Source: Alphaproteobacteria bacterium (lineage in GTDB: Bacteria; Pseudomonadota; Alphaproteobacteria; TMED109). From it: a stretch of DNA of 49,585 nucleotides. Below, piece after piece: positions 45,281-49,448 of this stretch (positions are counted from its first letter, which is position 1; the number at the start of each line of letters is the position of its first letter). A program made the position numbers and the translations under genes. The notes beneath the pieces were generated by a model that saw only the letters and a program-made list of their open reading frames with translations, had not been told where the DNA came from and ran no database searches. Where the stretch lies: the NCBI GenBank assembly GCA_022825235.1, contig JAJDYI010000079.1:1-49585 (forward strand), read 5' to 3'.

Positions 45281-46387
45281 ATGCAGGTTGAGTCGCCACC
45301 GACGCGCACCATCTGGCGCTCCCCGGATTCGGCCGCGGTCGAGATCATCGACCAGACCCGCCTGCCGGCGGCGCTGGAGACCTGCCGCCTCACATCGCTC
45401 GAGGACGCGGCCGTCGCCATCCGCACCATGCAGGTGCGCGGTGCCCCCCTGATCGGCGTGACCGCCGCGTACGGAGTCGCGCTGGGACTGGCCGAACACG
45501 CCGACGACGACGCGCTGGCCGCTGTTATCGCCACCCTTGCCGGCACCCGGCCGACCGGGCGGGACCTCTTCACGGTCCTCGCGAAAATGCGGGACGCACT
45601 CGCCGGCCTCCCCCCGGCCGAGCGCCCGCAGGCAGCCTGGAGCCTGGCCGACGAGCTGGCGGAGGAGTGCGTCCGCACGTGCCGCGCCATCGGCCAGCAC
45701 GGCGCAGCGCTCATCGAGCGCATCGCCAAGGACAAGAAGGGGGGCCCGGTGAACGTGCTCACCCACTGCAACGCGGGGTGGCTCGCGTGCATTGAATGGG
45801 GCACCGCGCTTGCCCCTGTCTACGTCGCTGCGGAGCGCGGCTGCGACGTCCATGTCTGGGTCGGGGAAACCCGGCCCCGCAACCAGGGCGCCGCGCTCAC
45901 GTGCTGGGAGCTCGGATCAGGCGGGATTCCCCACACCCTCACCGTCGACAGTGCGACCGGCTACCTGATGTCGGAAGCCCGGGTGGACCTCGCGATCACG
46001 GGCGCCGACCGGGTCCTCCGCGACGGCACCGTGTGCAACAAGATTGGCACCTACATGAAGGCGCTGGCCGCCCGGGACAACGGCGTGCCGTTCTATGTGG
46101 CGGTGCCGGAAACGACGGTCGACCGCACGACGTCGCCCGGCCCGGGCGCCATCCCGATCGAGGAGCGGGACGCCGGGGAGGTGCTGCGGGCGAGCGGGCG
46201 GAACGCCGCCGGAGCACATGATTCGATCGCGGTCGCCCCCCTGGCCACCGCCGCCTTCAACCCGGCGTTCGACGTGACCCCGCCCCACCTGGTCCACGGC
46301 CTCGTGACCGAGGCCGGCGTGGGACCCGCGACCCCGGAGGGCATTGAGGCCCTGTTCGGCCCAGCGCCGGAAGGGCGCCCGGCGTGA
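45281..46387 (+). CDS. mtnA: S-methyl-5-thioribose-1-phosphate isomerase
   Basis: Predicted 368 residues from ATG 45281. It isomerises 5-methylthioribose-1-phosphate, and in some bacteria 5-deoxyribose-1-phosphate, to the ribulose form. Catalytic Cys163 is in LTHCNAGWLACIEWGTALAP and Asp243 in LAITGADRVLRDGTVCNKIG. RTMQVRGAPLIGVTAAYGVA is the substrate-binding start. Length is normal. Its stop overlaps the start of the aldolase-SDR gene by four bases. The rest of a standard methionine salvage pathway is absent from the window. Confidence 0.95.
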   Translation: MQVESPPTRTIWRSPDSAAVEIIDQTRLPAALETCRLTSLEDAAVAIRTMQVRGAPLIGVTAAYGVALGLAEHADDDALAAVIATLAGTRPTGRDLFTVLAKMRDALAGLPPAERPQAAWSLADELAEECVRTCRAIGQHGAALIERIAKDKKGGPVNVLTHCNAGWLACIEWGTALAPVYVAAERGCDVHVWVGETRPRNQGAALTCWELGSGGIPHTLTVDSATGYLMSEARVDLAITGADRVLRDGTVCNKIGTYMKALAARDNGVPFYVAVPETTVDRTTSPGPGAIPIEERDAGEVLRASGRNAAGAHDSIAVAPLATAAFNPAFDVTPPHLVHGLVTEAGVGPATPEGIEALFGPAPEGRPA

Positions 46388-48435
46388 GGAACCGCTGGCG
46401 GACGGCCGACGCTGCGGCCCTGGTCCGGCGGCTGCGGCGACGCGGCGTGGCGGAGGATCTGGCGCTCCGCGTGTACTCGAGCCGCCTGCTCGGCGGCGAC
46501 CCGCGCCTGGTGCTGCACGGCGGCGGCAACACGTCGGTGAAGGTATCCCGGCCCGGCGCGCGGACGGACACGCTCGACGTCCTCCACGTCAAGGGGAGCG
46601 GCTGGGACATGGCGGCGATCGAGCCGGAGGGCCTGCCCGGGATCCGATTGGCGCCGCTCCGGGCCCTTCGGGGACGCCCGGAGCTATCCGACGAGGCCAT
46701 GGTGCAGGCCCACCGCGCGCACCTGCTGGACCCCTCCGCCCCCTCGCCCTCCGTCGAAACCCTGCTCCACGCGTTCCTGCCGCACACGTACATCGACCAT
46801 ACCCACGCCAATGCCGTGTTGGCGGTCACCAACCAGCCCGATGGGGCCGCGCGGGCCCGCGCGATCTGGGGGGACCGCGTCGGCATCGTGCCCTACGTGA
46901 TGCCCGGATTCCGGCTCGCGAAGGCCTGCGCCGCGGCCTACGAGGAAGCGCCCGAGGTCGAAGGGCTCATCCTGCTGGCGCACGGGATCTTCACGTTCGG
47001 CCCGACCGCGCGGATCGCCTACGACCGCATGATCAGCCTGGTGAGCGCCGCCGAACGTGCAGTCGCCCGCAAGCAGCGTTCGGTACGGCCTGTCCGGTCG
47101 CGGCCGCCGGCCGATCGCACCGTGTCCGCCGCCGCCCCGGTGCTGCGGGGCCTCCTCTGCCGGGCGCTGGATCCCGACCGCACCGAGCGCCCGGCCCGCC
47201 GACTGGTGCTCGTGCACCGCGCAAGTGCCCGCGCGCGGTGGCTCGCCGACCATCCCGATCTCGCGACCGGGCCGGTGACGCCCGACCACGTACTCAGGAC
47301 CAAGCCGCGCCCCCTGGTCGTCCCCGACCACGGGCGGGCTGCCGGCACGCCCGGGTTTCGGTGTACGGCATCTTCTGCAATCAACGCGTACACAGATCGT
47401 TACCGGTCCTATCTCAAGGCACATGCAGGACGGGCCGACGGGCCGCTCACACCGCTGGATCCCGCGCCCCGGGTGCTGCTGGCGCCCGGCCTCGGCGTCA
47501 TTGCGGCGGGGCCCAGCCGCCGGGCCGCCGACATCACCGCGGACCTGGCCGAGGCCACGGCCGAAGTGGTCCGGGCGGCGGACGCCCTTGGATCGTTCCA
47601 GGCATTGCCCGACGCGGACCTGTTCGACGTCGAATACTGGCCCCTCGAGCAGGCGAAGCTCGGGACCCGCCGTCAACTCCCGTTCGAGGGCCACGTGGTG
47701 GTGGTGACGGGCGCCGGCGGGGCCATCGGGCAGGCCACCGCGCAGGCCTTCCGCGCCGAGGGCGCCGAGGTGGCGCTGCTCGACCGGAACCGGCGCACGC
47801 TCGAGCAGGCGGCGGCGGAGGTCGGAGGCCTGGCGGTCGAGACGGATCTCACCCGTCCGGACAGCGTGGCGCGCGCCTTCGACCGGATCGTCCGGACCTT
47901 CGGCGGTCTCGACGTCCTGGTCTCCAACGCGGGCGTCGCCTACTCCGGCGCGATCGCCGACGTCGATGAAGCGACGCTCCGCGAGAGTTTCGAGGTGAAC
48001 TTCTTCGCGCATCAGCGCGTGGCGCAGGCCGCGCTCGCCGTGTTCCGGGCGCAGGGCATCGGCGGGTGCCTGCTCTTCAACGTATCCAAGCAGGCGGTGT
48101 ACCCGGGGCCGAAACTCGGCGCCTACAGCACCGCCAAGGCAGCGACGCTGGCCCTGATGCGCCAGTACGCCCTGGAGTGCGGCGGCGAAGGCATTCGCGC
48201 CAACGCGGTCAATCCCGACCGAATCCGAAGCGGCATCCTCGACGATGCCATGATCAGGGCACGCGCCAGGGAGCGGAATTTGAGCGTGGACGACTACATG
48301 GCCGGCAACCTGCTGGGCGAGGAAGTACGGGCGGCGGACGTGGCGCAGGCCTTCGTGCTGCTTGCGCGCCAGGAGCGGACGACGGCCGCCGTGCTCACGG
48401 TGGACGGCGGCAACCTTGCGGCGGCGGTGCGCTGA
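46384..48435 (+). CDS. Class II aldolase - short-chain dehydrogenase fusion
   Basis: Predicted 683 residues from GTG 46384. Residues about 1-430 are a class II (RhaD/fuculose-type) aldolase: LVLHGGGNTSVKVSRP, the zinc-binding HTYIDHTHANAVLAVTNQ and LLAHGIFTFGPTARIAYDR. Residues about 435-683 are an SDR: VVVVTGAGGAIGQATAQAFR, VSNAGVAYSG, active-site LGAYSTAKAATLALMRQY. Relatives couple rhamnulose-1-phosphate cleavage to lactaldehyde oxidation. Overlap with mtnA suggests the substrate here may be 5-methylthio- or 5-deoxyribulose-1-phosphate. No rhamnose genes are nearby. Confidence 0.9.
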   Translation: MRNRWRTADAAALVRRLRRRGVAEDLALRVYSSRLLGGDPRLVLHGGGNTSVKVSRPGARTDTLDVLHVKGSGWDMAAIEPEGLPGIRLAPLRALRGRPELSDEAMVQAHRAHLLDPSAPSPSVETLLHAFLPHTYIDHTHANAVLAVTNQPDGAARARAIWGDRVGIVPYVMPGFRLAKACAAAYEEAPEVEGLILLAHGIFTFGPTARIAYDRMISLVSAAERAVARKQRSVRPVRSRPPADRTVSAAAPVLRGLLCRALDPDRTERPARRLVLVHRASARARWLADHPDLATGPVTPDHVLRTKPRPLVVPDHGRAAGTPGFRCTASSAINAYTDRYRSYLKAHAGRADGPLTPLDPAPRVLLAPGLGVIAAGPSRRAADITADLAEATAEVVRAADALGSFQALPDADLFDVEYWPLEQAKLGTRRQLPFEGHVVVVTGAGGAIGQATAQAFRAEGAEVALLDRNRRTLEQAAAEVGGLAVETDLTRPDSVARAFDRIVRTFGGLDVLVSNAGVAYSGAIADVDEATLRESFEVNFFAHQRVAQAALAVFRAQGIGGCLLFNVSKQAVYPGPKLGAYSTAKAATLALMRQYALECGGEGIRANAVNPDRIRSGILDDAMIRARARERNLSVDDYMAGNLLGEEVRAADVAQAFVLLARQERTTAAVLTVDGGNLAAAVR

Positions 48436-48437
48436 CC

Positions 48438-49448
48438 ATGCAGGTATGGGAGCTCACGGCCTGGTCCCGCGACGGCCTGCGGCAGGCGGAACGCCCCGAT
48501 CCGGTGCCCGGCCCGGGCGAGGTCGTCGTCGGGATCGAGGCGGCGTCACTCAACTACCGTGACCTCGTGATGGTTAACGGCGGCTACGGCCGCGCGGGCG
48601 GTGGCCTTCCCGTCGTGCCGCTGTCCGATGGGGCCGGACGAATCGTCGCCGTCGGTGACAGGGTCGACCCGTCGCTGGAAGGGCAGCTCGTGGTCCCCTC
48701 GTTCTTCCAGCACTGGCGAAGCGGGCGCTTTCCTCCCGACGCCCTGACCGGAGCGCTCGGCGGGCCGCTCGACGGGGTCCTGCAGGAGCGGATGCTCCTC
48801 GACGCGGGCGGCGTGGTCGCCGCTCCCAAGGGCTGGAGTGCCGCGGAGGCCAGCACGCTGCCGTGCGCCGCGATCACCGCATGGAGCGCGGTGTCGGGGC
48901 TGGCCCGTACCCGGCCCGGAGACGTGGTCGTCGTGGAGGGGACGGGCGGGGTCGCCTGCTTTGCCGTCCAGTTCGCACACCTGTGCGGTGCGCACGTCGT
49001 CGTCGTGTCCTCGAGCGACGCCAAGCTCGCGGCCGTCCAGCGCCTGGGCGCCGATACCCTGATCAACTACCGCCGCACCCCGCAATGGGGTAAGACAGTC
49101 CGCGCCGACGTGGGGGAGGCTGACTTGGTGATTGAGCTGGGCGGCGCGGAAACGCTCGGGCAGGCGCTCCGGGCCGTGCGGCCGGGCGGGACCATCGCGC
49201 TGATCGGCGTGCTGTCCGGCGGCCTGGCCGAGCTGCCGCTCGGACCGGCGGTCACCCGCGAAATCCGCTTCCAGTCGGTGACCTGCGGGTCACGCGATGA
49301 TCTCAGGGACATGGTCCGGGCCATCGACGCCAGCACCCTCCGGCCGATGATCGACCGGACCTATCCGTTCGAAGCCCTGCCCGACGCGTTCGACCGGCTG
49401 GAGGCGGCCGAACACATCGGCAAGATCTGCGTGAACGGAGCGGCCTAG
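48438..49448 (+). CDS. MDR-family NAD(P)-dependent oxidoreductase
   Basis: Predicted 336 residues from ATG 48438, two bases after the preceding stop. Medium-chain dehydrogenase fold: VVVGIEAASLNYRDLVMVNG, the nucleotide loop VVVEGTGGVACFAVQFAHLC, and VRPGGTIALIGVLSGGLAEL. The catalytic-zinc Cys and structural Cys quartet are absent, as in quinone oxidoreductase-like members. Tight spacing with mtnA and the aldolase fusion suggests it handles the aldehyde released by the aldolase or its reduced product. This is inference from context. Confidence 0.88.
   Translation: MQVWELTAWSRDGLRQAERPDPVPGPGEVVVGIEAASLNYRDLVMVNGGYGRAGGGLPVVPLSDGAGRIVAVGDRVDPSLEGQLVVPSFFQHWRSGRFPPDALTGALGGPLDGVLQERMLLDAGGVVAAPKGWSAAEASTLPCAAITAWSAVSGLARTRPGDVVVVEGTGGVACFAVQFAHLCGAHVVVVSSSDAKLAAVQRLGADTLINYRRTPQWGKTVRADVGEADLVIELGGAETLGQALRAVRPGGTIALIGVLSGGLAELPLGPAVTREIRFQSVTCGSRDDLRDMVRAIDASTLRPMIDRTYPFEALPDAFDRLEAAEHIGKICVNGAA

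Follow-up and report, generated by a model that had tools for sequence, protein, structure and literature searches.

An aldolase/short-chain dehydrogenase fusion encoded in an operon with mtnA is a candidate aldolase of the DHAP shunt

In a window of 49,585 nucleotides (the whole stretch of DNA analysed here) from an alphaproteobacterium, the gene mtnA is directly followed by a gene coding for a class II aldolase fused to a short-chain dehydrogenase (SDR). This raises the question of which enzyme acts on the MtnA product in this organism, and whether it could be the fusion. The genes and the parts of the fusion protein are located as follows:

45281..46387, + strand: mtnA, S-methyl-5-thioribose-1-phosphate isomerase; ATG start, TGA stop; TIGR00512, NF004326
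46384..48435, + strand: class II aldolase/SDR fusion, 683 aa; GTG start; NF006192
46384..47073, + strand: aldolase domain of the fusion, residues 1-230; Aldolase_II match at residues 33-225
47074..47673, + strand: connecting region of the fusion, residues 231-430; no Pfam family; folded domain in the AlphaFold model
47674..48435, + strand: SDR domain of the fusion, residues 431-683; adh_short at 132.7 bits, residues 438-618
48438..49448, + strand: MDR oxidoreductase without catalytic-zinc ligands; ATG start; PF08240 and PF00107

A preliminary description of this DNA had claimed that mtnA overlaps the fusion gene and that the MDR gene follows two bases later. Both claims are borne out: the GTG start codon of the fusion at 46384 lies in the final codons of mtnA, with GTGA as the overlap, and the MDR gene starts with the ATG at 48438, two bases past the fusion stop codon ending at 48435. 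This confirms that mtnA, the fusion gene and the MDR gene form a tight operon close to the contig end. As the contig terminates at 49585, 137 bases beyond the MDR gene, the operon is possibly longer downstream. In profile searches, the mtnA product scored 358.4 bits with TIGR00512 (cut-off 279) and 406.5 bits with NF004326 (cut-off 271), and mtnA was the sole IF-2B-family gene detected in the whole genome.

The presence of Aldolase_II and adh_short on one protein (Pfam) also agrees with the earlier claim of an aldolase-SDR fusion. With 885.9 bits against a cut-off of 639, the protein is a member of the NF006192 (PRK08324.1-6) family. Its AlphaFold model has a mean pLDDT of 87 and a pTM of 0.88, and a Foldseek search matched the model to the class II aldolase domain structure 3m4r (target TM-score 0.93, 40% identity) as well as to many SDRs. 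In alignments of 15 and 20 sequences, residues E125, H139, H141 and H200 of the aldolase half, which are putative metal ligands by analogy with class II aldolases, are invariant, and so are the SDR tetrad N539, S568, Y581 and K585 and residue D467, located after the second SDR strand. Given the invariant tetrad and putative metal site, both halves of the fusion look active, and by the SDR rule D467 suggests a preference for NAD(H). Within the connecting region, residues 364-402 resemble the final part of the aldolase domain and may be a degenerate repeat of it.

Which other salvage enzymes does the genome encode? The gene for the MTA phosphorylase MtnP is present on another contig (C35), outside the operon, and its product scored 296.5 bits with TIGR01694 (cut-off 274.85) and 470 bits with NF006492 (cut-off 437). 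Whole-genome searches found neither the MTR kinase MtnK nor a match for acireductone dioxygenase (ARD, MtnD), nor any match to PF00016 for RuBisCO or a RuBisCO-like protein (RLP). Besides the fusion, four of the five Aldolase_II genes code for adducin-type proteins, none of which matched MtnB or a fuculose-type Ald2; the fusion likewise did not match MtnB. Thus, none of the five is a stand-alone fuculose-type Ald2, the aldolase of the known DHAP shunt. In this genome, a defining gene is missing for canonical methionine salvage, for the variant from Bacillus and for the MTA-isoprenoid shunt alike. With ARD, MtnB and RLP unmatched, we reject a complete methionine salvage set elsewhere in the genome, which the preliminary description had named as evidence against its proposal. 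The genome is 96% complete, so that any single absence could be an assembly gap. Taking the missing ARD, MtnB, RLP, MtnK and rhizobial-type rhamnose isomerase together, no recognisable enzyme other than the fusion is left to take the MtnA product. A second phosphorylase-superfamily protein (L003, contig C47:22904-23710) has an apparent N-terminal signal peptide, which suggests a periplasmic nucleosidase.

On the strength of these sequence data, we propose, with a probability of roughly 85%, that the operon supplies two steps of a DHAP shunt, isomerase and aldolase, and that the fusion cuts 5-methylthioribulose-1-phosphate and/or 5-deoxyribulose-1-phosphate. Ald2 and DrdA are precedents for a class II aldolase acting after an MtnA-type isomerase (PMC5893883, PMC6079011, PMC10986504). 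The substrate, reaction, cofactor and aldehyde fate that we infer for the fusion would fit into the following route. MtnP would carry out the phosphorolysis of 5'-methylthioadenosine (MTA) and probably also of 5'-deoxyadenosine, and MtnA would isomerise the resulting sugar-1-phosphate. From 5-methylthioribulose-1-phosphate, the aldolase half of the fusion would then produce DHAP and 2-(methylthio)acetaldehyde, or from 5-deoxyribulose-1-phosphate DHAP and acetaldehyde, and the SDR half would convert the released aldehyde with NAD(H). In this way, one protein would replace the separate Ald2/DrdA aldolase and the 'alcohol dehydrogenase' of the known pathway. The path from MtnA through a class II aldolase with a fused SDR to DHAP, as put forward in the preliminary description, fits every genomic test made. 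Its designation as a 'two-enzyme' route omits MtnP, which is encoded on the other contig.

The strongest evidence for the proposed role of the fusion comes from a gene replacement. In genomes of the window's family that lack the fusion, the gene after mtnA codes for a class II aldolase that stands alone, and in five genomes (G007, G009, G010, G014 and G020) this gene is followed by genes for the MDR and a response regulator. According to profile scores, the stand-alone aldolase in this slot is of the fuculose type and not MtnB. The loci of G027 and G010, which belong to the same genus (g5), are collinear: the three upstream genes are 85, 63 and 86% identical, mtnA 73%, the MDR gene 71%, the regulator gene 76% and the next gene 64%. 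Between mtnA and the MDR gene, G010 codes for a 214-aa fuculose-type aldolase and G027 for a 672-aa fusion. In this pair, the fusion has naturally taken the place of an Ald2-like aldolase. That the fusion-lacking genomes do without an SDR in that slot counts against our explanation, as does the location of the window genome's mtnP outside the operon.

The arrangement also recurs well beyond the window. The fusion is present in all six congeners searched, and the order mtnA-fusion-MDR is kept at the complete congener loci (G001, G002, G004, G005 and G006) and in two named MAGs (L051 and L052), the remaining congener locus, G003, being broken by a contig end. The order is no chance arrangement. 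A scan of GTDB species genomes yielded at least 593 stretches related to the fusion. Among the best 80 of these, which share ancestry, so that the counts are non-independent, mtnA was found nearby in 42, in keeping with the linkage noted in the preliminary description, mtnP in 30 and the adenine phosphoribosyltransferase gene apt in 21. Within the same best 80, mtnA lies immediately 5' of the fusion gene on the same strand in 16 and is convergent within 700 bases at eleven SAR11-like loci; where the fusion gene has no mtnA nearby, 28 of 31 such genomes carry an above-cut-off mtnA elsewhere and two more carry pieces of it. The linkage recurs across several phyla, in the order mtnP-mtnA-fusion in Tistrella, mtnK-mtnA-fusion, an order seen on plasmids, in Gemmatirosa and regulator-fusion-ABC transporter-mtnK-mtnA on rhizobial plasmids. 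As the partner arrangements differ by lineage, the linkage of mtn genes and the fusion seems to have been selected for repeatedly. In three rhizobial plasmid clusters, a split transketolase pair is encoded after mtnK-mtnA (L042:8731-10462, L043:16318-18052 and L050:18820-21883), and the L050 cluster additionally contains a gene for a RuBisCO-like protein, which suggests another branch for the same intermediate.

In a presence/absence comparison of 61 relatives, a set whose fusion-bearing lineages are too few for a clear result, mtnA is often found where there is no fusion, which is explained by the occurrence of stand-alone aldolases. The question of how cyanobacteria without Ald2 manage has been raised before (PMC8102628). 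As a general answer the fusion was rejected, since a close form (70-79% identity) is present in only 3 of 194 cyanobacterial genomes; 13 further genomes of this set contain relatives with 40-45% identity.

Methylthio- and deoxy- substrates are not distinguishable from sequence. At 17 SAR11-type loci, the fusion gene is divergent from a gene for SpeD-SpeE, a SAM decarboxylase fused to spermidine synthase, and as the spermidine-synthase reaction yields MTA, these neighbours favour methylthio substrates. The known pathway takes both methylthio and 5-deoxy compounds (PMC10986504, PMC6079011), so that both are likely substrates of the fusion. One might alternatively propose that the disposal of 5-deoxyribose is the sole physiological role and that methylthio substrates are incidental. 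DrdKIA of Bacillus thuringiensis indeed works in this way (PMC6079011), and in other bacteria one enzyme set takes both substrates (PMC10986504), but we consider this restriction unlikely, as no other known enzyme for 5-methylthioribulose-1-phosphate remains when ARD, MtnB and RLP are not found in the genome, and as the SAR11 SpeD-SpeE neighbours indicate MTA.

We regard it as very unlikely that the operon serves general pentose-1-phosphate catabolism, with MtnA isomerising another aldose-1-phosphate (e.g. ribose-1-phosphate to ribulose-1-phosphate) and the fusion taking another ketose-1-phosphate. Promiscuity is known for class II aldolases (PMC6079011), the stand-alone slot aldolases match the ribulose-1-phosphate aldolase model, though under its cut-off, and some members of the fusion clade are found in polyol-like clusters. 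However, MtnA is above the cut-off for methylthioribose-1-phosphate isomerase and, in the profile search, far under that for ribose-1,5-bisphosphate isomerase, and the neighbours MtnP, MtnK, Apt and SpeD-SpeE indicate MTA. The polyol-like clusters, found in Rhizobium and Agrobacterium (L048, L135 and L044), carry a related fusion without mtn genes, together with genes for dehydrogenases plus glpD, a HAD phosphatase, a sugar ABC transporter or an FGGY kinase. One further clade member occurs in a genome (G057) in which mtnA was not detected. The last gene of the lsr (autoinducer-2) operons of Sinorhizobium meliloti (L131:7001-8251) and Alloyangia (L137:6926-8167) codes for a relative of the aldolase half that has no SDR and may process phospho-AI-2. 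Considering the polyol-like, G057 and autoinducer-2 contexts, the family is not strictly MTA-specific.

The idea that the fusion is a RhaEW-type L-rhamnulose-1-phosphate aldolase/lactaldehyde dehydrogenase that adjoins mtnA by chance is hardly credible and was rejected on tree, score and gene context, even though the fusion has the domain architecture of RhaEW and TIGR02632 (RhaD_aldol-ADH) matches it along its full length. This match, at 447.9 bits, is under the cut-off of 567.75, whereas the two rhamnose-operon proteins tested scored 878-1193, above it. Five mtn-type or unlinked relatives, the G027 fusion and a polyol-type fusion are under the TIGR02632 and over the NF006192 cut-off. Fusions from rhamnose operons, recognised by neighbouring rhaI, rhamnulokinase, rhaM or rhaS genes, share 31-34% identity with the window fusion, compared with 42-57% for relatives that include mtn-linked ones outside the genus. 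In a quick tree of 103 proteins, which has some long branches, they group on a branch of their own with full support. In addition, the mtnA linkage of the fusion is repeated in several phyla, and TIGR02629 had no match in the genome, which upholds the earlier claim that rhamnose genes are absent as far as the rhizobial-type rhamnose isomerase is concerned, the E. coli-type RhaA being outside this search.

If the fusion is the aldolase of a DHAP shunt, what happens to the aldehyde? In R. palustris, it is reduced to 2-(methylthio)ethanol by a 'putative alcohol dehydrogenase' (PMC5893883). RhaEW from Chloroflexus and Bacillus, which has been validated in vitro, links the aldolase reaction to an NAD-dependent oxidation of lactaldehyde (PMC3870299), and by analogy this suggests a possible oxidative direction for the SDR of the fusion, which may instead reduce the aldehyde as in R. 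palustris. One could further speculate about an oxidative, O2-dependent shunt, in which the SDR would form methylthioacetate and an Fe(II)/2-oxoglutarate dioxygenase (PhyH in SAR11, a TauD-family protein in Reyranella) would release methanethiol and glyoxylate by alpha-hydroxylation, although we think this quite unlikely. Were it true, SAR11 would gain a route recovering sulfur from MTA, and the methanethiol-forming step of the aerobic shunt would be supplied.

PhyH-family (2-oxoglutarate dioxygenase) genes are present in six SAR11 loci, either between mtnP and mtnA or in a cluster on the speDE side. Three of them are located at:

L112:12720-13508: PhyH-family gene, between mtnP and mtnA
L122:3635-4426: PhyH-family gene, between mtnP and mtnA
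L097:4759-5547: PhyH-family gene

Downstream of the fusion gene, usually directly, there is a gene for a TauD-family dioxygenase at L079:9093-9977, L058:11158-12045 and eight similar loci. These belong to Reyranella and Enhydrobacter relatives, and most also have an MDR gene upstream of the fusion gene.

The window MDR contains the motifs SLNYRD and PLSDGAG and, when aligned with MDRs encoded beside other fusions and stand-alone aldolases, lacks the zinc ligands, for which reason a classical zinc alcohol dehydrogenase was rejected. A role as partner of the SDR only was also rejected, since the MDR is encoded beside stand-alone aldolases too. As it accompanies both types of aldolase, it is probably responsible for a separate step.

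Automatic annotation labels the fusion a 'bifunctional aldolase/short-chain dehydrogenase' or a rhamnose enzyme, with the consequence that genomes relying on it seem unable to dispose of MTA and 5-deoxyadenosine past MtnA. Reassignment of the subfamily would close this gap in many Alphaproteobacteria, Gemmatimonadota, some Synechococcus and the abundant marine SAR11, and the proposed role would be the recycling of a sulfur-containing leftover of polyamine and methionine metabolism. The SDR half is also a candidate for the aldehyde-handling 'putative alcohol dehydrogenase' of R. palustris (PMC5893883). No paper tying the fusion to mtnA was found in an incomplete literature search, outside of which lay a 2020 Mol Microbiol survey of the DHAP shunt that possibly holds a prior mention; in two papers on SAR11 polyamine and purine metabolism, we found no mention of an aldolase or mtnA.

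Among described systems, NF006192 (PRK08324.1-6) includes the window fusion, but the model names no substrate or pathway. The architecture itself is already known from RhaEW, which resembles the window fusion in its aldolase-SDR domain order and full-length homology and differs from it in its neighbours, which are rhaI, rhamnulokinase or rhaS rather than mtn genes. DrdKIA of B. thuringiensis (PMC6079011) likewise combines an isomerase with a class II aldolase to give DHAP, but uses a kinase and a stand-alone fuculose-type aldolase where the window genome has a phosphorylase and a fused aldolase. The DHAP shunt or DHAP-methanethiol shunt of Rhodospirillum rubrum, Rhodopseudomonas palustris and E. 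coli consists of MtnP or MtnK, MtnA and Ald2 (PMC5893883, PMC10986504). The window genome shares with it MtnP, MtnA, an mtnA-linked class II aldolase and the lack of detected canonical methionine salvage genes, and in sister genomes the slot of the fusion is taken by a stand-alone aldolase; what sets the window genome apart is an aldolase of the PRK08324 subfamily with an SDR fused to it. The window's system is best read as a variant of this known route that has an aldolase-SDR fusion in place of Ald2.
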